From Sphingomonas sp. DG1-23 (GTDB taxonomy: Bacteria > Pseudomonadota > Alphaproteobacteria > Sphingomonadales > Sphingomonadaceae), in the NCBI RefSeq assembly GCF_030730875.1, contig NZ_JAVAMA010000013.1, positions 124,001 to 188,000 of the forward strand: a stretch of DNA of 64,000 bases. The letters run 5' to 3'. The notes under the pieces were generated by a model. That model ran no database searches and was not told the origin of the DNA. It saw only the letters and a list, made by a program, of their open reading frames with translations. How positions within the stretch are numbered: position 1 is the first letter of the stretch; the number at the start of each line of letters is the position of its first letter. This document shows positions 18,750 to 57,368 of this stretch, piece after piece. The translations under genes and the position numbers were made by a program.

Positions 18750-19631
18750 ATGGCCGCGCGCGCCTATTGGCAGGGACAGATCCGGCTGGCGCTGGTTTCG
18801 ATTCCCGTCGAGATCTATTCCGCGACCAAATCGGGTGCGCAGATCAGCTTCCATCAGATCCACGAGCCCAGCGGCAAACGGATCAAATATGAAAAGGTCG
18901 CCCCCGGCGTCGGTCCGGTCGACGTCGACGAGATCGTCAAGGGCTTCGAATATGAGAAGGGCTCGTACGTCCTGCTCGAACAGGACGAGATCGATGCGGT
19001 CAAGCTCGAGTCCAAGAAGACGCTCGAGCTCACCCAGTTCGTCGATGCCGACGAGATCGACGTGCTCTATTACGAGAAGCCCTATTTCGTCGTTCCCGCC
19101 GACGATCTCGCCGAAGAGGCGTTCATCGTGCTGCGCGAGGCGCTCCGCCGCTCCCGGAAAGTCGGGCTCGGCCAGCTCGCGATGCGCGGCCGCGAATATG
19201 TCGTCAGCCTCAAGCCCTGCGGCCGCGGCATGGTGCTCGAGACTTTGCGTTACGCCGACGAGGTCAACAAGGCGCAGGGCTATTTCCGCGACATCCCCGA
19301 CAGCGAGCCCGATCCCGAACTGCTCGGCCTCGCCGAAACGCTGATCGACAAGAAGGTCGCGAAGTTCGATCCCAAGGAATTCCACGACCGCTATGTCGAC
19401 GCGCTCAAGGAGCTGATCGAGCGCAAGAAGAAGGCCAAGGGCAAGAAAATCCTCGAGGAGAAGGACGACGGTGCTCCCAGCCGCGGCTCGAACGTCGTCG
19501 ATCTGATGGCGGCGCTCAAGAAATCGCTGGAGAAGCCCGAGGCCAAATCGAGCGCGGCGGTGAAGACCAGGCCCGCCAAGGCTCCGGCAAAGGCACCGGC
19601 GAAGAAGGCCCCTGCGAGGAAGCGTGCATGA
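18750..19631 (+). CDS. ku: Ku DNA end-binding protein (NHEJ)
   Basis: 293 residues. It starts MAARAYWQGQIRLALVSIPVEIYSA, contains the Ku core with YYEKPYFVVP and GREYVVSLKPCGRGMVLETLRY, and ends in a Lys/Ala/Pro-rich tail (KAPAKAPAKKAPARKR). Bacterial Ku homodimers ring broken DNA ends and recruit LigD; the basic tail is commonly involved in DNA binding. The gene is followed directly, with overlap, by ligD, so a complete two-component end-joining system is encoded here. AGGAGCAAGACG upstream gives a good ribosome binding site for the ATG at 18750. Confidence 0.95.
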   Translation: MAARAYWQGQIRLALVSIPVEIYSATKSGAQISFHQIHEPSGKRIKYEKVAPGVGPVDVDEIVKGFEYEKGSYVLLEQDEIDAVKLESKKTLELTQFVDADEIDVLYYEKPYFVVPADDLAEEAFIVLREALRRSRKVGLGQLAMRGREYVVSLKPCGRGMVLETLRYADEVNKAQGYFRDIPDSEPDPELLGLAETLIDKKVAKFDPKEFHDRYVDALKELIERKKKAKGKKILEEKDDGAPSRGSNVVDLMAALKKSLEKPEAKSSAAVKTRPAKAPAKAPAKKAPARKRA

Positions 19632-19647
19632 TTTCGCGGAGAAGATG

Positions 19648-22149
19648 ATGGCCAAATCCGATCCCCTCGCCAGATACAATGCCAAGCGCGATTTCACCCA
19701 GACCGCCGAGCCCTCGGGCAAGATCGCGCGTACCGGCGGCAATCGCTTCATGGTCCAGAAGCACGACGCGACCCGGCTTCACTGGGATTTCCGCATCGAG
19801 GTCGATGGCGTGCTCAAGAGCTGGGCGGTCACCCGCGGACCGAGCCTCGACCCCGACGCCAAGCGCCTCGCCGTCCGCACCGAGGATCATCCGCTTTCCT
19901 ATGCCGATTTCGAAGGCACGATTCCCAAGGGCCAATATGGCGGCGGCACGGTGATGCTGTGGGACGACGGCGTCTGGGAACCGGTCGAAGGCAAGAGCGC
20001 CAAGGATCTCGAGAAAGGCCATCTCCATTTCCGTCTCGAAGGCGAGCGGATGAAGGGCGAATGGCTGCTGATCCGATTGAAGCCGCGCGGCAAGGAGAAG
20101 AACGAGAACTGGCTGCTCCGCAAGATCGACGACGCATATGCCGGCGCCACCGATTTCCTCGTCGAGACCGGCCTCACCAGCATCAAGACCGGCCGCACCA
20201 TGCTGGAGATCGCCGAAGGGAAAGCCGCGTCATCCCGGCGGAAGCCGGGACCTCAGGCAGCAAGCCGCTCGCCCGTGGCCCGAGATCCCGGCGTTCGCCG
20301 GAATGACGGAAAGAGGGCGGACGGGAAGCTCCCCGACTTCCAGCAACCCCAGCTCGCCACGCTCGTCGACAGCGTTCCCGCCGGCAATCAATGGCTCCAC
20401 GAAGTCAAATATGACGGCTATCGCGCGCTGATCGCCACCGGCGCCAAGGGTCCCAAGATCTATACCCGTTCGGGGCTCGACTGGACCGACAAATTCCCCG
20501 GCATCGCCGAAGCCGCGAAGACGCTCCCCGCCCCCGCGCTGCTCGACGGCGAGATCATCGCCTACAAGAACGGCAAGCCCGATTTCTCGACATTGCAGGA
20601 AGCGATCTCGGCCGGCGGCGAGGGGCTGATTTTTTTCGCGTTCGACCTGCTCTCCGATCGCGGCGAGGACATCACGAAGCTCCCCCAGCTCGCACGGAAG
20701 GAGCGGCTGCGCGCGCTGCTCGGGGGCGCCGCCGCCAAGATGGATGAGCGCATCCTGTTCTCCGAGCATATCGTCGGCGCCGGCGAGAAACTGTTCGAGA
20801 CGATGTGCCGCGAGGGCTTTGAAGGGATTATCTCCAAGCGCGCCGACGCGCCCTATCGCGGCGCGCGCACCAAATCCTGGCTCAAGGTCAAATGCATCCG
20901 GCGGCAGGAGTTCGTGATCGTCGGCTGGACGCCGAGCGCGGCCAAGGGCCGCGGCTTCCGTTCGCTGCTGCTCGCGGTCAACGGCCCCGACGGGCTGGTT
21001 TATGCCGGAAAGGTGGGGACGGGGTTCAACCAGGCGACACTGCTGGATCTGCGCGAGCGGTTCGACAAGATCGCAGTCGACAAGGCGCCGGTGAAGGTCC
21101 CGCGCCCCGAGGCCCGCGGCGCCCGCTGGATCAAGCCGAAGCTCGTCGCCGAGATCGCCTTCAGCGAATTCACCGCCGAGAATGTCGTGCGCCATGGCAG
21201 CTTCATCGCGTTGCGCGAGGACAAGAAGCCCGGCGAAATCGTCGCCGAGAAGCCCGCGCCGCTTCCCGAGACCCCCGCGGCCACGCAGTCGAGCATCAAG
21301 ATCAGCAGCCGGGATCGGGTGATCTATCCCGAATCCGGGCTCACCAAGGGCGAGCTTGCCGATTATTACGCCGCAGTCGCGCCGATCGCTTTGCGCTGGC
21401 TCGCCGATCGCCCGATCAGCCTCGTCCGCTGTCCGCAGGGGCGCGCCAAGCATTGCTTCTTCCAGAAGCACGACGCCGGCAGCTTCGGCGACAATGTCCA
21501 TCACGTCGACGTCCGCGAGAAGGACGGCAGCGTGCAGCCCTATCTCTATGTGGGCGACCTCGACGGGATCATGGCCTGCGTCCAGATGGGCACGATCGAA
21601 TTTCACGGCTGGGGCAGCCTCGTCGCCGATATCGAGAAACCCGATCGGATGGTGTTCGATCTCGATCCCGACGAAGGGCTCGATTTCGGCGAGGTCAAGA
21701 AGGCGGCCGAGGATCTCAAGGGCCATCTCGCCGATATCGGCCTCACCAGCTGGCCCTTGCTGTCGGGCGGCAAGGGGGTCCATGTCGTCGTGCCGCTGAT
21801 CCCGCAGGTCGATTGGCCGGCGGTCCGCTCCTTCGCCGAACGCTTCGCGCGCGCGCTGGCGCAGGCAGAACCCGACCGGTTCACCGCGAACCTCAAAAAG
21901 GTGACGCGCAAGGGCAAGATCTTCATCGATTATCTGCGCAACCAGCGCGGCGCGACCGCGGTGCTCCCTTATGTGGCGCGTGCCCGTGAGAATGCGCCGG
22001 TCGCCGCGCCGATCACCTGGACCGAGCTGCGCGATCTCGATTCCGCCAAGCGGTACACCATCCGCGACGCCGCGACCTTGCTCGACCGTGCCACCAGCCG
22101 CGCGCTGCAGGGCTGGGGCGAGGCCGGTCAGACGCTGCCGGATCTGTAA
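19648..22149 (+). CDS. ligD: Multifunctional NHEJ DNA ligase LigD, with in-frame repeat insertion
   Basis: About 833 residues from the ATG at 19648 (GCGGAGAAG upstream; a GTG at 19624 overlapping ku is an alternative). Domain order is phosphoesterase (residues about 10-180, HDATRLHWDFRIE), then ATP-dependent ligase (catalytic Lys in EVKYDGYRALI; later WLKVKCIRRQEFVIVGWT and the OB-fold), then primase/polymerase (about 550-833, with DLDPDEGLDFGEV and GGKGVHVVVPL). This PE-LIG-POL order occurs in other proteobacterial LigD proteins. Between PE and LIG, residues about 194-221 are translated palindromic repeat. It joins double-strand breaks with Ku. Confidence 0.93.
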   Translation: MAKSDPLARYNAKRDFTQTAEPSGKIARTGGNRFMVQKHDATRLHWDFRIEVDGVLKSWAVTRGPSLDPDAKRLAVRTEDHPLSYADFEGTIPKGQYGGGTVMLWDDGVWEPVEGKSAKDLEKGHLHFRLEGERMKGEWLLIRLKPRGKEKNENWLLRKIDDAYAGATDFLVETGLTSIKTGRTMLEIAEGKAASSRRKPGPQAASRSPVARDPGVRRNDGKRADGKLPDFQQPQLATLVDSVPAGNQWLHEVKYDGYRALIATGAKGPKIYTRSGLDWTDKFPGIAEAAKTLPAPALLDGEIIAYKNGKPDFSTLQEAISAGGEGLIFFAFDLLSDRGEDITKLPQLARKERLRALLGGAAAKMDERILFSEHIVGAGEKLFETMCREGFEGIISKRADAPYRGARTKSWLKVKCIRRQEFVIVGWTPSAAKGRGFRSLLLAVNGPDGLVYAGKVGTGFNQATLLDLRERFDKIAVDKAPVKVPRPEARGARWIKPKLVAEIAFSEFTAENVVRHGSFIALREDKKPGEIVAEKPAPLPETPAATQSSIKISSRDRVIYPESGLTKGELADYYAAVAPIALRWLADRPISLVRCPQGRAKHCFFQKHDAGSFGDNVHHVDVREKDGSVQPYLYVGDLDGIMACVQMGTIEFHGWGSLVADIEKPDRMVFDLDPDEGLDFGEVKKAAEDLKGHLADIGLTSWPLLSGGKGVHVVVPLIPQVDWPAVRSFAERFARALAQAEPDRFTANLKKVTRKGKIFIDYLRNQRGATAVLPYVARARENAPVAAPITWTELRDLDSAKRYTIRDAATLLDRATSRALQGWGEAGQTLPDL
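20229..20309. repeat. Palindromic repeat, family A copy 1, inside ligD
   Basis: GTCATCCCGGCGGAAGCCGG on the left and its diverged complement CCGGCGTTCGCCGGAATGAC on the right, about 81 bases, read in frame through ligD at the PE/ligase domain junction. It gives the Ser/Arg/Pro-rich linker SSRRKPGPQ...RRNDGK. Same family as the copies at 22175, 22598, 43549 and 54756. Confidence 0.85.
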
Positions 22150-22174: not shown

Positions 22175-22252
22175 GTCATCCCCGCGAAGGCGGGGATCCA
22201 GAGCTGCGGGCCGTCCCTCTTCACTCTGGATCCCCGCCTTCGCGGGGATGAC
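22175..22252. repeat. Palindromic repeat, family A copy 2, perfect 29-bp inverted arms
   Basis: The arms at 22175-22203 and 22224-22252 are exact reverse complements over 29 bases, each containing its own small hairpin (CCCCGC/GCGGGG), around a 20-base spacer. It lies between the ligD stop and the GIY-YIG start; the right arm ends 13 bases before that ATG. Confidence 0.93.
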
Positions 22253-22265
22253 GGGTTGCGTTACG

Positions 22266-22583
22266 ATGAAGACAATGGAACGCATTCCGGTCGTTTACAT
22301 CATGGGCAGCGGCCGCAATGGCACGCTCTACACCGGCGTCACCTCGGACCTTCCGAAGCGCATTTACGAACATCGGGCCAAGGCCGTCCCCGGCTTTACC
22401 GCAGACTATGGATGCAATCGCCTCGTCTGGTTCGAGGTTCACGCCGAGATGGAACCCGCCATCCTCCGCGAGAAGCGAATCAAGAAATGGAATCGTAGCT
22501 GGAAACTTCGCCTGATCGAGGAGGCTAATCCCACATGGCGTGACCTTGCGGAGGATTTCGGTTTTGATCCGCTGGAGGAATAA
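22266..22583 (+). CDS. GIY-YIG nuclease domain protein flanked by repeats
   Basis: About 105 residues from the ATG at 22266 (22275 is also possible; the frame is open back into the repeat). Stand-alone GIY-YIG domain of the UPF0213/COG2827 type: VVYIMGSGRNGTLYTGVTSDL carries the two half motifs, the catalytic Arg is in LPKRIYEHR, and the metal-ligand Glu lies in MEPAILREKRIKKWNRSWK. No DNA-binding domain is fused. Physiological roles of this group are largely unknown. Copies of the family A palindromic repeat lie on both sides (22175-22252 and 22598-22673), which raises the possibility that the nuclease and repeat travel or work together (inference). Confidence 0.9.
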   Translation: MKTMERIPVVYIMGSGRNGTLYTGVTSDLPKRIYEHRAKAVPGFTADYGCNRLVWFEVHAEMEPAILREKRIKKWNRSWKLRLIEEANPTWRDLAEDFGFDPLEE

Positions 22584-22597
22584 AGCCGCTCCACTTT

Positions 22598-22673
22598 GTC
22601 GTCCCTCGAAGGCGGAGAATCCAGAACTGCACTTTTCTGTTCATTGCCACTCTGGGTCCCACTTTGCCCGGAT
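22598..22673. repeat. Degenerate palindromic repeat, family A copy 3
   Basis: GTCGTCCCTCGAAGGCGG...ATCCAGAACTG on the left and CACTCTGGGTCCCACTTTGCCCGGAT on the right align with the arms of the perfect copy at 22175 but with several substitutions, so it is an older or decayed copy. It sits between the GIY-YIG stop and the ATP-grasp gene. Confidence 0.7.
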
Positions 22674-22764
22674 ACCGCGTGTTGGCGGACCATTCCGCAC
22701 ATCTCCCTTGTTGCCACGCAACATGCTTTCCCCCATCACGGCCCGCGATCGGAGGAAGCCCATT

Positions 22765-42450: not shown

Positions 42451-42454
<4 letters not shown>

Positions 42455-44490
42455 CCGAACACCCCGTGCAGGTACCAGCTGAGATCCCCGGTCGCCGGGC
42501 GCTCGCCATCGCCCTTGCGGAACAGCCAATAGCGCCGCCCGGCATCGTCCTCGACGCGGAAATAGTCGCGGATGTGATGCATCTCCGCGGCGCGCTTCCA
42601 CCATTCGCCATGCACGCGCTCGGGTCCGTCGGCGCGCACCACGCGATGCGATTGCCCACGCCAGGTGAAGCGGCGCGGGGCATGATCGGGCAGTTCGGCG
42701 ACGACATGGTCGAGCCGTTCGGGCCGGCGCAGCAGCCGCGCCGGCTTGGGCCATTCGGGATGCCAGGGATGGAGCGCGGGATTGCGGTCGAGCTGGCCGA
42801 CAGCGTCGATCTTGCCGCGCATGCCGGCGCGTTCGGGCGGATCGAGCACCGCCATGCTCGCCACCGATCGTTCGGGCACGTCGCTCTCTACCGGGCGATT
42901 GCGCCACATCGCACCCAAGCCGATCCGCGTGGCCAGCGTGTCGACCAGAGTCGCGAGATCGGGTGCCGCTTCTTCGTCGAGCCGTTCGGCGAAAGGCTCG
43001 GGCCCCAGCGGCATCGCGCGGCGGACGTGCAACGTCAGCGCGTCCACGCCGTAGCCCGGCTCGATCTGCTCGATGCGGCGGGCGAGCAGGCGCAGCAGAT
43101 GCGCGCCGTCGCGGCTGGGGCGGGCAAGGCCGATGCGGATGCGCTGCGGCACGCCGTCGACCCGGTCGGCGACCAATTCGATCCGGCTCGCGCCCAGCCC
43201 TTTTTCTGCCAGCGCGGCGGTGAGGCGCGGGACGAGCGTTCCCAGCCAATGCGCAATCGCCTCGGCAGTGGCGATCGGCTCGGCGAAGCGCTGGACGATC
43301 GCGATCGGCTCGGGCGGCGTCACCGGATGCAGCGGCTCGGGCAGCCGGCCCAATGCCTGTTCGAGCCGGGTGGCGATCGCCGCGCCGAACCGCCGGACCA
43401 GGGGCGCGCGCGGCATCGCGGCGAGCTGCGCGATCCGCCTGACGCCGAACCGGTGGAGCAATTCCACCGCGGCGGCATCGATGCGCAGCGCCTCGATCGG
43501 CAGGGGGGCGACGGCTTCGGCTTGCCGGCCCTTGCGACAAAGCAAGCCGTCATCCCCGCGCAGGCGGGGATCCAGAGCCCCGAGCGATGCCCTTTCCGAC
43601 TCTGGATTCCCGCCTGAGCGGGAATGACGAGGGGGCGGATAATGCGCCAATGCCCAGGCCGCGCCCGGCGTGTCGGCGATCGCGATCCGCGCGGAATAGC
43701 CCAGCCGGGCCAGCATCCGCCGCAGCCGCATCGCCATCGCCGCTTCGCCGCCGTGCAGATGCGCGACCCCGGTCAAATCGAGGAACAGGGTATCCTCGCC
43801 GTGGATCGCCACCGTCGGAGTCCAGCGCCGCGCCAGCGCGATCGCGAGGCCGGCGAGATGCGCGCGGTCGCCTTCGGGATCGGCCGGCCGGATATCGAGC
43901 CCGGCGATCTGCGCGCGGGCCTGGGCGAGCGCCATGCCGGGCGCCAGCCCCAGCGCGCGCGCGGCAGGGCAGGCGGCGGCGATCTCGACGCGGTTGCCGT
44001 TGCGGATGCTGGTGACGAGGGGCTCCAATTCCTCCCCGGAACGGGGAGGGGGACCGCCGAAGGCGGTGGAGGGGCGCGGCGGTTTACCGCCGCGTGCCGC
44101 GGCGGCCCCTCCACCATCGCTGCGCGATGGTCCCCCTCCCCGAGACAAGCTCGGGGAGGAATTAGCCCCTTCATCCGGCGGCATCGCGCGGAACGGGTTC
44201 ATCGCGGCTTCGTCGCGTCGCCCCACCTCGTGCCTCGCCGGCTGCCGCGTCACCGGCGGCAGCGCGACCTTGCCGAGCTGGTCCTCGCGCGCCCAGCGCG
44301 CGCCCGGCCGCCAGCCGCCGCCACGCGGCACCGAACAGGCATGCTCCTGCTCCCGGGCGGCAGCCGCGCGCAACGGATCGAGCGAGGCCGGTTCTGGCGC
44401 GCGCGGCTCAGGCGGCGCGGCGCGCCGCTCCGCCTGCCACAGCCTTTCGATCGGCCACATTGGCAGGAAGAGCGCAGCGACCCGTTGCAT
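42451..44490 (-). CDS. imuB: ImuB, Y-family polymerase-like mutasome protein, with two repeat insertions
   Basis: 679 residues, longer than the roughly 500 usual for ImuB. It starts MQRVAALFLPMWPIERLW, the ImuB N-terminus. The UmuC-like palm follows (AAARALGLAPGMALAQARA-type segment; FLDLTGVAHLHGGEAAMAMRL), then LPIEALRIDAAAVELLHRFGVRRIAQLAAMPR and the little-finger region. The polymerase acidic residues are not evident, as expected for ImuB, which acts as a clamp-binding hub for DnaE2. Residues about 110-155 are translated family B repeat and 288-314 family A repeat, both in frame and in positions where relatives have short loops. Residues 20-109 are also low-complexity. Confidence 0.9.
43549..43628. 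repeat. Palindromic repeat, family A copy 4, inside imuB
   Basis: The arms at 43549-43577 (GTCATCCCCGCGCAGGCGGG, then GATCCAGAG) and 43600-43628 (CTCTGGATTCCCGCC, then TGAGCGGGAATGAC) are near-perfect 29-base inverted repeats, 80 bases overall. They are translated within imuB as RHSRSGGNPESE...DPRLRGDDG. Confidence 0.9.
44027..44163. repeat. Palindromic repeat, family B copy 2, inside imuB
   Basis: AATTCCTCCCCGGAACGGGG at one end and CCCCGAGACAAGCTCGGGGAGGAATT at the other, with GGTGGAGGGGC and GCCCCTCCACC inside. It has the same architecture as the copy at 1779-1919, about 137 bases, and is translated in frame as a Gly/Pro/Ser/Arg-rich stretch of ImuB. Confidence 0.88.
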
Positions 44491-47505: not shown

Positions 47506-47614
47506 CGTCACCCCGGACTTGTTCCGGGGTCCACCGTGCCGCGCAAGGCAGGGCTGGAGGCTCCCGCGTCTCATCAAGCCGCTAAGTGGACCCCGGAACA
47601 AGTCCGGGGTGACG
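47506..47614. repeat. Palindromic repeat, family E, perfect 29-bp inverted arms
   Basis: The arms at 47506-47534 and 47586-47614 are exact reverse complements over 29 bases (each with the internal palindrome ACCCCGGACTTGTTCCGGGGT or its partner), with a 51-base spacer. It lies between the convergent peptidase and flippase genes and probably also acts as a bidirectional terminator. Confidence 0.92.
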
Positions 47615-49142: not shown

Positions 49143-49268
49143 GCTCGCCCTGACCTTGTCGAAAGGCGCGGGCCAACCAATCCGTGCGTGCTGAGCTTGT
49201 CGAAGCACGGCCATCCGCAAATGCGCCGCCTTTGGCAAGGCGCCCTTCGACAAGCTCAGGGCGAACGA
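49143..49268. repeat. Three palindromic units, family F (GAGCTTGTCGAAG type)
   Basis: Units at 49142-49170 (CGCTCGCCCTGACCTTGTCG), 49183-49210 (GTGCTGAGCTTGTCGAAGCAC) and, inverted, 49240-49268 (CCCTTCGACAAGCTCAGGGC), all sharing the core TTGTCGAA. They fill the spacer between the polA stop and the flippase start, so they sit in the region that must carry the flippase promoter or leader. Confidence 0.85.
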
Positions 49269-54755: not shown

Positions 54756-54781
54756 GTCATCCCGGCTTTCGCCGGGATGAC
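54756..54781. repeat. Palindromic repeat, family A, single-arm copy
   Basis: GTCATCCCGGCTTTCGCCGG plus GATGAC, a 26-base self-complementary unit equal to one arm of the two-armed copies elsewhere. It lies just downstream of nadB. Confidence 0.85.
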
Positions 54782-54805: not shown

Positions 54806-56395
54806 CTAAGGCACGAGGATCGTATCCACCGCCACGTCGAGCGTCTCGGGGAAATCGATCGTGTAGTGCAGGCCGCGGCTCTCCTTGCGGTGGAGCGCCG
54901 AGCGGACGATCAGATCGGCGCTCTCGAGCAGGTTGCGCAATTCGATCAGATCGGCGGTGACGCGGAAATGGCCGTAATAGTCGTTCACTTCGCCGCGCAG
55001 CATCTGGATGCGGTGCTGGGCGCGTTCGAGCCGCTTGGTCGATCGGACGATGCCGACATAATTCCACATGAACCGGCGGATCTCGGTCCAATTCTGCTTG
55101 ATCACCACTTCCTCGTCCGAATCGGTGACCCGGCTCTCGTCCCATGGCCGGATCGGCGGGGGCGGGGCGAGGTCGCCCCAATGGGCGGCGATGTGACTGG
55201 CCACCGCCTCGCCGAACACGAAGCATTCGAGCAGCGAGTTCGAGGCGAGGCGATTGGCGCCGTGCAGCCCCGATTGGCTGACTTCGCCCGCGGCATAGAG
55301 GTTGGGGAGGTCGGTGCGCCCGTCGCGATCGACCACCACGCCGCCGCAGGTATAATGCTGCGCGGGCACCACCGGAATCGGCCCGGTGGTCATGTCGATG
55401 TCGAGATCGATCAGCCGGGCATAGATGGTCGGGAAGTGCTGCTTCACGAACGCCGCGCCCATATGGCTGATGTCGAGATGGACATAATCGAGCCCGAAGC
55501 GCTTGATCTCGGCATCGATCGCGCGGGCGACGATGTCGCGCGGCGCCAGTTCGAGCCTCTTGTCGTAATACGGCATGAAGCGCTTGCCGGTCTGCGGGTT
55601 GATCAATTGCCCGCCCTCGCCGCGCACCGCCTCGGTGATCAGGAAGTTCTTGACCTCGAGATTGTACAGGCAGGTCGGGTGGAACTGCATGAACTCCATG
55701 TTGGAGATCCGGCACCCCGCGCGCCACGCCATCGCGATGCCGTCTCCGGTCGCGCCCTTCGGCGCGGTCGAGAACAGATAGGTTCGCCCCGCGCCGCCGG
55801 TCGCCAGCACCGTCGCATTGGCGGTGAACAATTCGACGCGGTTGGTCGCGCGGTTGAAGGCATAGACGCCCCAGACATTGCCCGCGCCCGAATAGCGTTG
55901 CTCGTGGCGGCTGGTGGCGAGATCGATCACCACCATGTCGGGCACCAGCGTGATGTTGGGGTTTTCGCGCGCCGCCTTGAGCAGGGCCTCCTGCACCGCC
56001 CAGCCGGTGGCGTCGTCGACATGGACGATGCGGCGATGGCTGTGCCCGCCCTCGCGGGTGAGGTGCAGCGAACCCTTGTCGGTGTTGAACGGCACGCCGA
56101 GCCTGGCGAGCCGCTCGATCGCGGCGGGTGCGTTCTCGACCACCATCTCCACGGTGGCGCGGTCGTTGAGCCCCGCGCCGGCGACCATCGTGTCCTCGAC
56201 ATGGTTCTCGAACGTATCGCCGGGCTCGAGCACCGCCGCGATCCCGCCCTGCGCCCATGCGGTCGAGCCTTCGTTGAGCGCGCCCTTGGCGAGCACGGTG
56301 ACCTTGAATCGCGCCGCGAGATTGAGCGCCGCGGTCAGCCCCGCCGCGCCCGAGCCGATGACGAGGATGTCGCTGGTATGAGGATCGCCGGCCAT
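54806..56395 (-). CDS. nadB: L-aspartate oxidase
   Basis: 529 residues from the ATG at 56395. The N-terminal FAD motif is SDILVIGSGAAGLTAALNLA. NEGSTAWAQGGIAAVL, GVPFNTDKGSLHLTREGGHSHRRIVHVDDATG, GGAGRTYLFSTAPKGATGDG and PAQHYTCGGVVVDRDGRTDLPNLYAAGEVSQSGLHGANRLASNSLLE are all L-aspartate oxidase signatures, including the active-site His/Arg set. The enzyme oxidises aspartate to iminoaspartate for quinolinate and NAD synthesis. Its usual partners nadA and nadC are not adjacent. The gene diverges from the esterase, with about 80 bases between starts. Confidence 0.95.
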   Translation of the reverse strand: MAGDPHTSDILVIGSGAAGLTAALNLAARFKVTVLAKGALNEGSTAWAQGGIAAVLEPGDTFENHVEDTMVAGAGLNDRATVEMVVENAPAAIERLARLGVPFNTDKGSLHLTREGGHSHRRIVHVDDATGWAVQEALLKAARENPNITLVPDMVVIDLATSRHEQRYSGAGNVWGVYAFNRATNRVELFTANATVLATGGAGRTYLFSTAPKGATGDGIAMAWRAGCRISNMEFMQFHPTCLYNLEVKNFLITEAVRGEGGQLINPQTGKRFMPYYDKRLELAPRDIVARAIDAEIKRFGLDYVHLDISHMGAAFVKQHFPTIYARLIDLDIDMTTGPIPVVPAQHYTCGGVVVDRDGRTDLPNLYAAGEVSQSGLHGANRLASNSLLECFVFGEAVASHIAAHWGDLAPPPPIRPWDESRVTDSDEEVVIKQNWTEIRRFMWNYVGIVRSTKRLERAQHRIQMLRGEVNDYYGHFRVTADLIELRNLLESADLIVRSALHRKESRGLHYTIDFPETLDVAVDTILVP

Positions 56396-56474
56396 GATGT
56401 TCTGCAGGAGCCTCTTCCGCTGGTTCGGCCTCCGACTAGGCGCTAAGCGGCAGCGCTGGCAAATGGAGAGAGAT

Positions 56475-57368
56475 ATGCGCCGCCAAAGCCTGGGTTTCGC
56501 CGCACTCATGTTCGCAGCCGGCTGGGTGCCCGCCGCCGGGGCCTGCACGCCCGGCGCGCCGGGCGCCACCCGGCGTGTGACGATCGGCGACACCGGCCGT
56601 TCGATGCTGCTCCATGTGCCGGCGAAAGTGCGGGGCAGGGCACCTTTGGTCTTCGTGCTCCATGGCAGTACCGGCGACGGCGCGGGGATCCTCGCCCAGT
56701 CGGGGCTCGAAGCGACCAGCGACCGCCACGGCTTCGTCCTCGCCGCGCCCGATGCCGGCATTGCCGCGGACAAGGGCTATGTCTGGAACATCCCCGGTGT
56801 TCCCACCGTCACCGGCAAGGTGCCGGGGCCGGACGATGCCGACGACGTCGCATATCTCGGCAAAGCGATCGACTGGCTCGCGGCGCAGGGTTGCGTCGAT
56901 CGCCGCCGGGTCTATGCCACCGGCCTGTCGGGCGGCGGCCGGATGTCGTCGTGGCTGGGCTGCGTCGCCGCCGATCGCTTCGCCGCGATCGCCCCCGTGG
57001 TGGGGCTGCGCGCGGGCAATCCCTCGGCGGCCGACCCGCGCTTCCCCGATCCGGCGACCTGCACGCCGTCAAGGCCGATGCCGGTGATCGCCTTCGCCGG
57101 CGGCAAGGACCGGACCAATCCGATCGAAGGTGGCGGCGCCGGCTATTGGCAATATCCGATGCGCGCCGCCGAGGCGCGCTGGGCCGATCTCAACGCCTGT
57201 CGCCGCCCGCTTGCCGGGCGCGTGCTGGAAGGCGGGGTGATCGAGCGCGGCTATGCCGATTGCCGCTCCGGCGCCGGGATCGTCGCGCGCATCACTCCGG
57301 ACGCAGGGCACGTCTGGACCGCGGACAATGACGCGATGTGGCGCTTCTTCGCGCAGCATCGGCGCTGA
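56475..57368 (+). CDS. Exported PHB-depolymerase/feruloyl-esterase-like alpha/beta hydrolase
   Basis: About 297 residues from the ATG at 56475 (GGAGAG upstream; ATG 56463 is an alternative). A signal peptide ends at VPAAGA. The alpha/beta fold has LVFVLHGSTGDG (oxyanion region), the nucleophile elbow GLSGGG in VYATGLSGGGRMSSWLGC, the Asp region VIAFAGGKD and the His in DAGHVWTADND. This is the LpqC/PHB-depolymerase-type esterase family, which includes feruloyl and acetylxylan esterases. Several Cys (CTPGAP, CVDRRR, CVAADR, CTPSRP, CRRPL, CRSG) suggest disulfides after export. Confidence 0.9.
   Translation: MRRQSLGFAALMFAAGWVPAAGACTPGAPGATRRVTIGDTGRSMLLHVPAKVRGRAPLVFVLHGSTGDGAGILAQSGLEATSDRHGFVLAAPDAGIAADKGYVWNIPGVPTVTGKVPGPDDADDVAYLGKAIDWLAAQGCVDRRRVYATGLSGGGRMSSWLGCVAADRFAAIAPVVGLRAGNPSAADPRFPDPATCTPSRPMPVIAFAGGKDRTNPIEGGGAGYWQYPMRAAEARWADLNACRRPLAGRVLEGGVIERGYADCRSGAGIVARITPDAGHVWTADNDAMWRFFAQHRR

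Follow-up and report, generated by a model that had tools for sequence, protein, structure and literature searches.

A stand-alone GIY-YIG nuclease gene of Sphingomonas sp. DG1-23 as a candidate partner of the CGTC-type REPs that flank it

Does a small nuclease gene that lies between two copies of a dispersed palindromic repeat act on that repeat, or is it only its neighbour? The question is raised by a locus in the window analysed here, a stretch of 64,000 nucleotides from Sphingomonas sp. DG1-23. CGTC-type REPs have a recognisable anatomy, with a head, an 8-bp stem, a loop of 4-5 nt, a CCA-like tail, an arrangement in head-to-head pairs and insertion into repair genes, and according to Di Nocera et al. 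2013 (PMC3733652) they are apparently without a dedicated transposase. The following features of the window are relevant:

20229 to 20307, unstranded: CGTC-type REP pair of a second subtype, related to the intact copy, inside the ligD frame (ORF 19624-22149)
22175 to 22252, unstranded: intact CGTC-type REP pair, two inverted REPs with 20 nt between the arms, TGTC/CGTC head, 8-bp stem, GAAG loop and CCAG tail
22275 to 22583, plus strand: stand-alone GIY-YIG endonuclease gene, 102 aa from the likely start (PF01541, E = 8e-15)
about 22597 to 22680, unstranded: decayed copy of the window REP pair, from alignment to the intact copy
43549 to 43628, unstranded: CGTC-type REP pair similar to the intact one, within the imuB-like frame 42451-44490 (minus strand, IMS family)
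47506 to 47614, unstranded: CGTC-type REP pair of the 5-nt-loop subtype (ACCCCGGACTTGTTCCGGGGT), with perfect 29-nt arms
54756 to 54778, unstranded: single CGTC-type palindrome directly beyond the end of the nadB-like ORF 54806-56773 (minus strand; domains fit nadB)

The block formed by the gene and its two repeats is intergenic, lying between ligD and an ATP-grasp gene according to domain assignments. A preliminary description of this DNA had given the upstream repeat perfect inverted arms, and the arms (22175-22203 and 22224-22252, 29 nt each) are indeed 100% complementary; as single-stranded DNA the unit has a predicted fold of -42.5 kcal/mol (z = -12 against shuffles). The degenerate copy that it placed at 22598-22673 is also real, with an alignment score of 24 to the intact copy that only 3 of 1979 random windows reach (mean 5.1, sd 2.5), and its predicted fold is poor (z = -0.4 against shuffles). 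Further family copies inside ligD, inside imuB and after nadB were found where it had seen them (20229-20307, 43549-43628 and 54756-54778). The stand-alone GIY-YIG gene, then given as 22266-22583, stands with a likelier start at 22275; in-frame ATGs at 22248 and 22266 would give longer forms, and by eye 22275 agrees with the start in a syntenic relative (L234). The name UPF0213-type fits the protein loosely, as the nearest solved structure is the UPF0213 protein PDB 1zg2 but with E = 0.0016, and no NCBIfam model is reported even at E <= 10. The only Pfam match is PF01541, so the HUH single-tyrosine transposase expected of a RAYT or REPtron is not what this gene encodes. PADLOC, consulted on a defence-system label, gave nothing significant.

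Across 179 fetched loci, corresponding to 168 distinct protein stretches, the columns Y17, G25, R38, H42, E75, K79 and N94 (111-aa numbering) are near-invariant. Comparison of the window copy with eight relatives gives dN/dS values of 0.09-0.17, which are rough since dS exceeds 1 throughout; a ninth comparison is saturated. Judged by sequence, the nuclease is under purifying selection and its catalytic residues are conserved.

The repeat itself has the CGTC/TGTC head, 8-9 bp stem, 4-5 nt loop, CCA tail and head-to-head pairing of a CGTC-type REP, and it is dispersed in many copies. A genome-wide pattern restricted to the common stem types has 128 matches in DG1-23 and 0 when reversed, and the REP core at up to 3 mismatches gives 63+53 against 7+6. 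The genome also holds four other relatives of the window nuclease group, all of them damaged by stops, frame or length and some only fragments, which indicates that nuclease copies decay; the other matches to the window nuclease have 43-58% identity. By eye, each related copy or fragment adjoins its own repeat variant, and for the variant beside the C10 copy, a genome-wide count allowing up to 2 mismatches gives 16 (control 0).

Two observations on repeats elsewhere may be added here. At 49183-49267 of the window lies an inverted pair of the CGTGCGTGCTGAGCTTGTCGAAG type, like the repeat class that accompanies a UPF0213-like gene discussed below. In another genome (G083), three similar elements of ~1.1 kb (L300, L301 and L302) have inverted CGTC REPs on either side, as though they had entered existing REP pairs, and each carries a transposase-like gene that is IS30-like by eye.

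Pairing of nuclease copies with their repeats

The preliminary description expected repeats of this family to be enriched beside such nuclease genes when compared with other ORFs, and this is what is found. Of 159 relatives found, the 80 best, and hence close ones, were examined. In 79 of 80 the distance from the matched stretch to a CGTC-type REP is at most 150 bp, and REPs lie on both sides in 62 of 80. For mechanically called control ORFs from the same loci, the numbers are 35/366 and 5/366. Two locus pairs have the same gene DNA, and dropping the duplicates leaves 77/78 and 60/78. The set includes MAGs labelled Elusimicrobia, Planctomycetota and Hydrogenedentota, several Gammaproteobacteria and one betaproteobacterial MAG; the single miss (L117) comes from a Caulobacteraceae MAG. 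Where both sides are occupied, the gene mostly sits within one head-to-head (inverted) REP pair (48/62), with 6 loci showing outward-facing repeats and 8 repeats of the same orientation, and the rest of the 80 are 17 one-sided loci and the one without a REP.

Loci from genomes of the same genus have a REP in 25/29 cases (three of the 29 duplicate a locus among the 80), and those from a sample of the phylum in 17/28, leaving 11/28 without one by the mechanical test; the control sets here are 6 and 5 ORFs only, 0 of them with a REP. When the 15 genus and phylum misses are read by eye, most have another palindromic repeat adjoining the gene, such as one with a TGTG head, or GTCATTGCGAGGAGCGAAGCGACGAAGCAATCC and related repeats on either side of the gene. 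UvrC genes served as a negative control, and a non-canonical hairpin was found near an end in 2/7, these being the only usable cases.

The pairing also holds from copy to copy. Repeats that merely collected around genes would be common to all copies in a genome, and this is mostly not so, which argues for specificity. The comparison covers 43 copies in 13 genomes, hand-picked from genomes with several listed matches; it overlaps the genus and phylum set in six of the 40 fetched loci and in the three that were added. Between the upstream and downstream flank of one copy the median repeat score is 29, whereas flanks of differing copies in one genome have a median of 10, equal to background (212 comparisons). 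The score of a copy's own flanks exceeds its best cross value in 34 of the 43, with 2 ties and 7 below. A repeat-flanked gene with differing variants for differing copies is the arrangement known from RAYTs and REPtrons. Likewise the repeat type, as read from the sequences, tracks the protein tree: the loop class requires 11 changes against at least 18 in 300 shuffles (139 rows), and the inner stem 18 against at least 31 (125 rows). This tree, for which 168 of 179 rows were kept after repeated and short rows were dropped, ignores species phylogeny, for which the within-genome flank comparison controls. Nuclease and REP are therefore very probably cognate. The earlier suggestion that the GIY-YIG protein is the partner of the palindrome thus has strong, if indirect, support from the enrichment, the copy-specific repeats and the agreement between repeat type and protein tree.

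The reading that we prefer, at a probability of roughly 0.7, is that the product of the gene is a GIY-YIG endonuclease specific for the repeat and that the surrounding CGTC-type REPs are its cognate sites. A repeat that becomes single-stranded, on the lagging strand or in recombination or transformation intermediates, would fold into a hairpin, and the nuclease would bind this hairpin together with the CGTC head and nick there, presumably with a preference for single strands. Repair or recombination at the nick may then place copies of the short REP pairs elsewhere in the genome. The gene itself would typically sit in the spacer of a REP pair and be inherited mostly in place, decaying or being lost while the repeats spread. 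To our knowledge, GIY-YIG enzymes have no strand-transfer chemistry, so copying of the repeat would need host repair, and we put forward this mobilisation step only tentatively.

Inheritance of the gene and competing explanations

How the gene is passed on can be judged from the sites it occupies. A match to the ATP-grasp gene was found in 146 genomes; the loci of the best 30 were fetched, and ligD precedes the ATP-grasp gene in 15/30. At this site the nuclease is present only in DG1-23 and in one other genome (G399), where it has full REP pairs on both sides; the block is absent in 13/15. Comparison by eye with three syntenic loci (L233, L235 and L236) showed no clean target-site duplication at the window. 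In 109 fetched loci of close relatives, ligD and the ATP-grasp gene have 0 matches, with positive controls that worked, and as far as the fetched flanks reach, these relatives lie at other sites. The tuf-rpsJ site has a GIY-YIG match only in DG1-23 and, in decayed form, at L155 (28 usable pairs from 30 loci), and the relatives at that site are too diverged for exact junctions. As a separate observation, one genome (G051, locus L233) has two short frames, by eye a toxin-antitoxin pair of the ParD/ParE type, in the position of the nuclease block between ligD and the ATP-grasp gene.

The paralogues compared within genomes are old. In 53 within-genome pairs from the 43 hand-picked loci and 13 genomes the identity has a median of 56% and a maximum of 86%, and for 39/43 copies a closer relative is found outside their own genome. 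Of ten close pairs chosen for high identity, nine join different genomes and one lies within G060; in every one the alignment runs on through both flanks, in L260/L291 around an extra repeat block. Old paralogues and close pairs that align through their flanks suggest that the gene is inherited mostly in place and that the repeats are the part that multiplies. Recent multiplication of the gene within genomes was seen in none of the copies compared, and in this respect a RAYT-REP pair is a closer match to the system than a transposon is. An insertion sequence would be expected to leave nearly identical copies of itself at several places in a genome, and none was seen in DG1-23 or among the copies compared in 13 other genomes. 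A conserved gene interrupted at a fixed site, as by a homing endonuclease, is not seen either, the block being intergenic and its close relatives elsewhere.

Of the competing explanations, the one that survives best is that the nuclease serves its host, with single-stranded DNA cut at the repeats to tune recombination or DNA uptake, the repeats kept as sites and their spread a side effect. We regard this as possible, though on balance improbable. It is the way in which Ssn in Neisseria is reportedly interpreted. A record labelled Neisseria gonorrhoeae, from a plasmid collection but of chromosome size, holds a protein 61% identical to the window protein over 90 aa, and its gene, presumably the published ssn, sits among 16 ATTCCC-N8-GGGAAT repeats within 3.27 kb, a string that we take to be the definition of dRS3 and thus a dRS3-like array. 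The purifying selection on the nuclease and the same flanks in nine close between-genome pairs also fit a host function. Frequent loss of the gene would be odd for such a function, however, and most of the syntenic sites examined have no GIY-YIG gene, broken copies occur, and all four other relatives in DG1-23 are damaged.

It is unlikely that the REPs are mobilised by a RAYT or another transposase encoded elsewhere and that the nuclease does no more than insert at them or recognise them. What speaks for this explanation is the tie between GTAG REPs and RAYTs (PMC3733652), and that some REP-rich genomes show no relative of the window nuclease. Against it, CGTC REPs are found with transposase genes in a few fortuitous associations only (Di Nocera et al. 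2013, PMC3733652).

Co-occurrence of REPs and gene bears on the endonuclease reading as well, and within the genus it supports that reading: the median REP count is 42 in 93 genomes with the gene and 8 in 8 genomes without it (p = 7e-4), and it correlates weakly with nuclease copy number (rho 0.31). In 299 genomes of the phylum, the table of at least 10 REPs by a gene match at E <= 1e-10 is 21/13/55/210, an odds ratio of 6.2. Of the 34 phylum genomes with at least 10 pattern-matched REPs, 13 thus have no relative at this threshold, and 10 of these 13 have no match at all to the nuclease query. Seven of the ten show a GIY-YIG match in a UvrC-sized frame only; another (G189) has one UvrC-sized GIY-YIG frame and one of 112 aa, G347 has two matches in long frames, and G317, also REP-rich, has no GIY-YIG match. 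The reverse occurs as well, as some genomes with the gene are nearly free of REPs by the pattern (G011 has 5 matches and 3 REPs). The preliminary description had named repeats equally abundant in genomes without the gene as an argument against the link; this applies in part, since some REP-rich genomes do lack the gene. A strict dependence of the REPs on the nuclease gene was rejected on these grounds. REPs can evidently persist, or be served, without it, and relic repeats or another enzyme could account for such genomes.

For the record, six genomes (G131, G136, G202, G152, G264 and G255) have 37-126 CGTC REPs and their sole GIY-YIG match in a UvrC-sized frame.

That the nuclease and both repeats form a small self-copying transposon, from which the REP pairs would derive as non-autonomous forms, is very unlikely. 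The position of the gene inside one inverted pair at 48/62 two-sided loci is what such an element would show, and so are the absence of the block from 13/15 loci where ligD precedes the ATP-grasp gene and the 109 close relatives found, as far as the fetched flanks show, at other sites. Against this, the 53 within-genome pairs include no recent duplicates, the top pair (86%) also has its flanks in common, and a target duplication was not identified by eye at the window. As the main account of the locus, the transposon was rejected because recent within-genome duplicates are missing among the 43 loci compared and close copies keep common flanks. The earlier idea of a small mobile unit, and of a block whose presence or absence could be followed in syntenic strains, has support from presence and absence at syntenic sites and from close relatives that lie elsewhere; against it, the paralogues compared are old, nine between-genome pairs keep the same flanks and no clean target duplication is seen. 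Finally, a coincidence in which repeats accumulate beside any gene that can be spared, for which the preference of REPs for intergenic space (PMC3733652) could be cited, can practically be dismissed given 35/366 control ORFs against 79/80 relatives, and is largely contradicted by copy-specific repeats inside one genome.

Other nuclease groups nested in repeats

The endonuclease reading gains a wider context from two other groups of small nucleases. DG1-23 has a second intact GIY-YIG gene (G000:C12:200817-201104, loci L205 and L312), UPF0213-like by eye, which lies between exact CGTTTCGAGCGAAGTCGAGAAACG palindromes, and elsewhere in the genome these palindromes form short inverted pairs. UPF0213-like relatives in the genus have a common flank repeat in 24/28 loci, compared with 0/252 control window pairs, and a CCGTTCG head in 27/28 compared with 43/252; 28 of 30 fetched genus loci were used, as two at contig ends were dropped, and the controls come from the same loci. 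The other group consists of DUF559 genes, whose fold is unrelated to GIY-YIG and which were first noticed at the tuf-rpsJ spacer (L165 and, by eye, L168). Their flanks share a repeat, mostly of the CCCTCTCCC...GGGAGAGGG kind, in 10/16 loci (L349-L364) against 1/176 controls with equal windows, the 16 having been hand-picked from 44 records; the repeats of L357 and L358 are very similar.

Window-type GIY-YIG, UPF0213-like GIY-YIG and DUF559 genes are thus each found nested in their own class of dispersed palindromes. It is conceivable, if still somewhat speculative, that the RAYT-REP pair exemplifies a broader arrangement, that of a small nuclease which spreads and persists together with its palindrome and, here, without an HUH transposase. 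If the nesting is true of UPF0213-like and DUF559 genes in general, candidate enzymes would become available for more bacterial repeat families that are as yet unexplained. If CGTC REPs have a dedicated nuclease, a test of their origin would need no more than one purified protein and one oligonucleotide. As one genome can hold several nuclease-repeat pairs with differing repeats, these could also be used as natural nickases that are specific for a sequence and possibly for single strands.

Comparison with known systems

A search of mostly open-access journal papers, judged by the titles and the beginnings of abstracts of the best-ranked entries, found no literature linking GIY-YIG or DUF559 nucleases to REPs; two of the papers, PMC7318869 and PMC10928387, mention several of the terms once. 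The CGTC-type REPs of PMC3733652 have the anatomy of the window repeat; a dedicated nuclease is proposed here, and the conclusion there is that a dedicated transposase is apparently lacking. The same paper places dRS3 of Neisseria within the CGTC-1 REPs and also treats CGTC-1 of S. wittichii (PMC3733652). With UPF0213 (PDB 1zg2), the window protein shares the GIY-YIG domain and a similar size at low similarity, and the UPF0213-like second gene of DG1-23 goes with a different repeat than the window type.

RAYT-REP pairs (REPtrons) and REPINs are alike in having an enzyme gene flanked by a paired palindrome and repeats dispersed as inverted pairs, and several enzyme copies with differing repeats (PMC3733652). 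The differences are that the window enzyme is a GIY-YIG protein and not an HUH tyrosine transposase, and that the head is CGTC and not GTAG. RAYT genes are mostly inherited in place, without recent amplification, and the genomes compared here likewise show no recent amplification of the nuclease gene.

The closest parallel is with Neisseria. A 2025 report in Nat Commun by Chenal and colleagues is said to describe Ssn as a family of site-specific, single-strand-specific nucleases with a meningococcal relative, and Ssn reportedly recognises a dispersed repeat called NTS. Given this report, it is doubtful that the window holds an undescribed system, as had been proposed, and we count the feature as a probable new member of the Ssn kind. 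Two traits reported for Ssn are both found: the window protein is a small, homologous, stand-alone GIY-YIG protein, and its gene lies amid a dispersed repeat. Unlike Ssn, the window system belongs to a sphingomonad, and it can come as several paralogues in a genome, tied to differing repeat variants.
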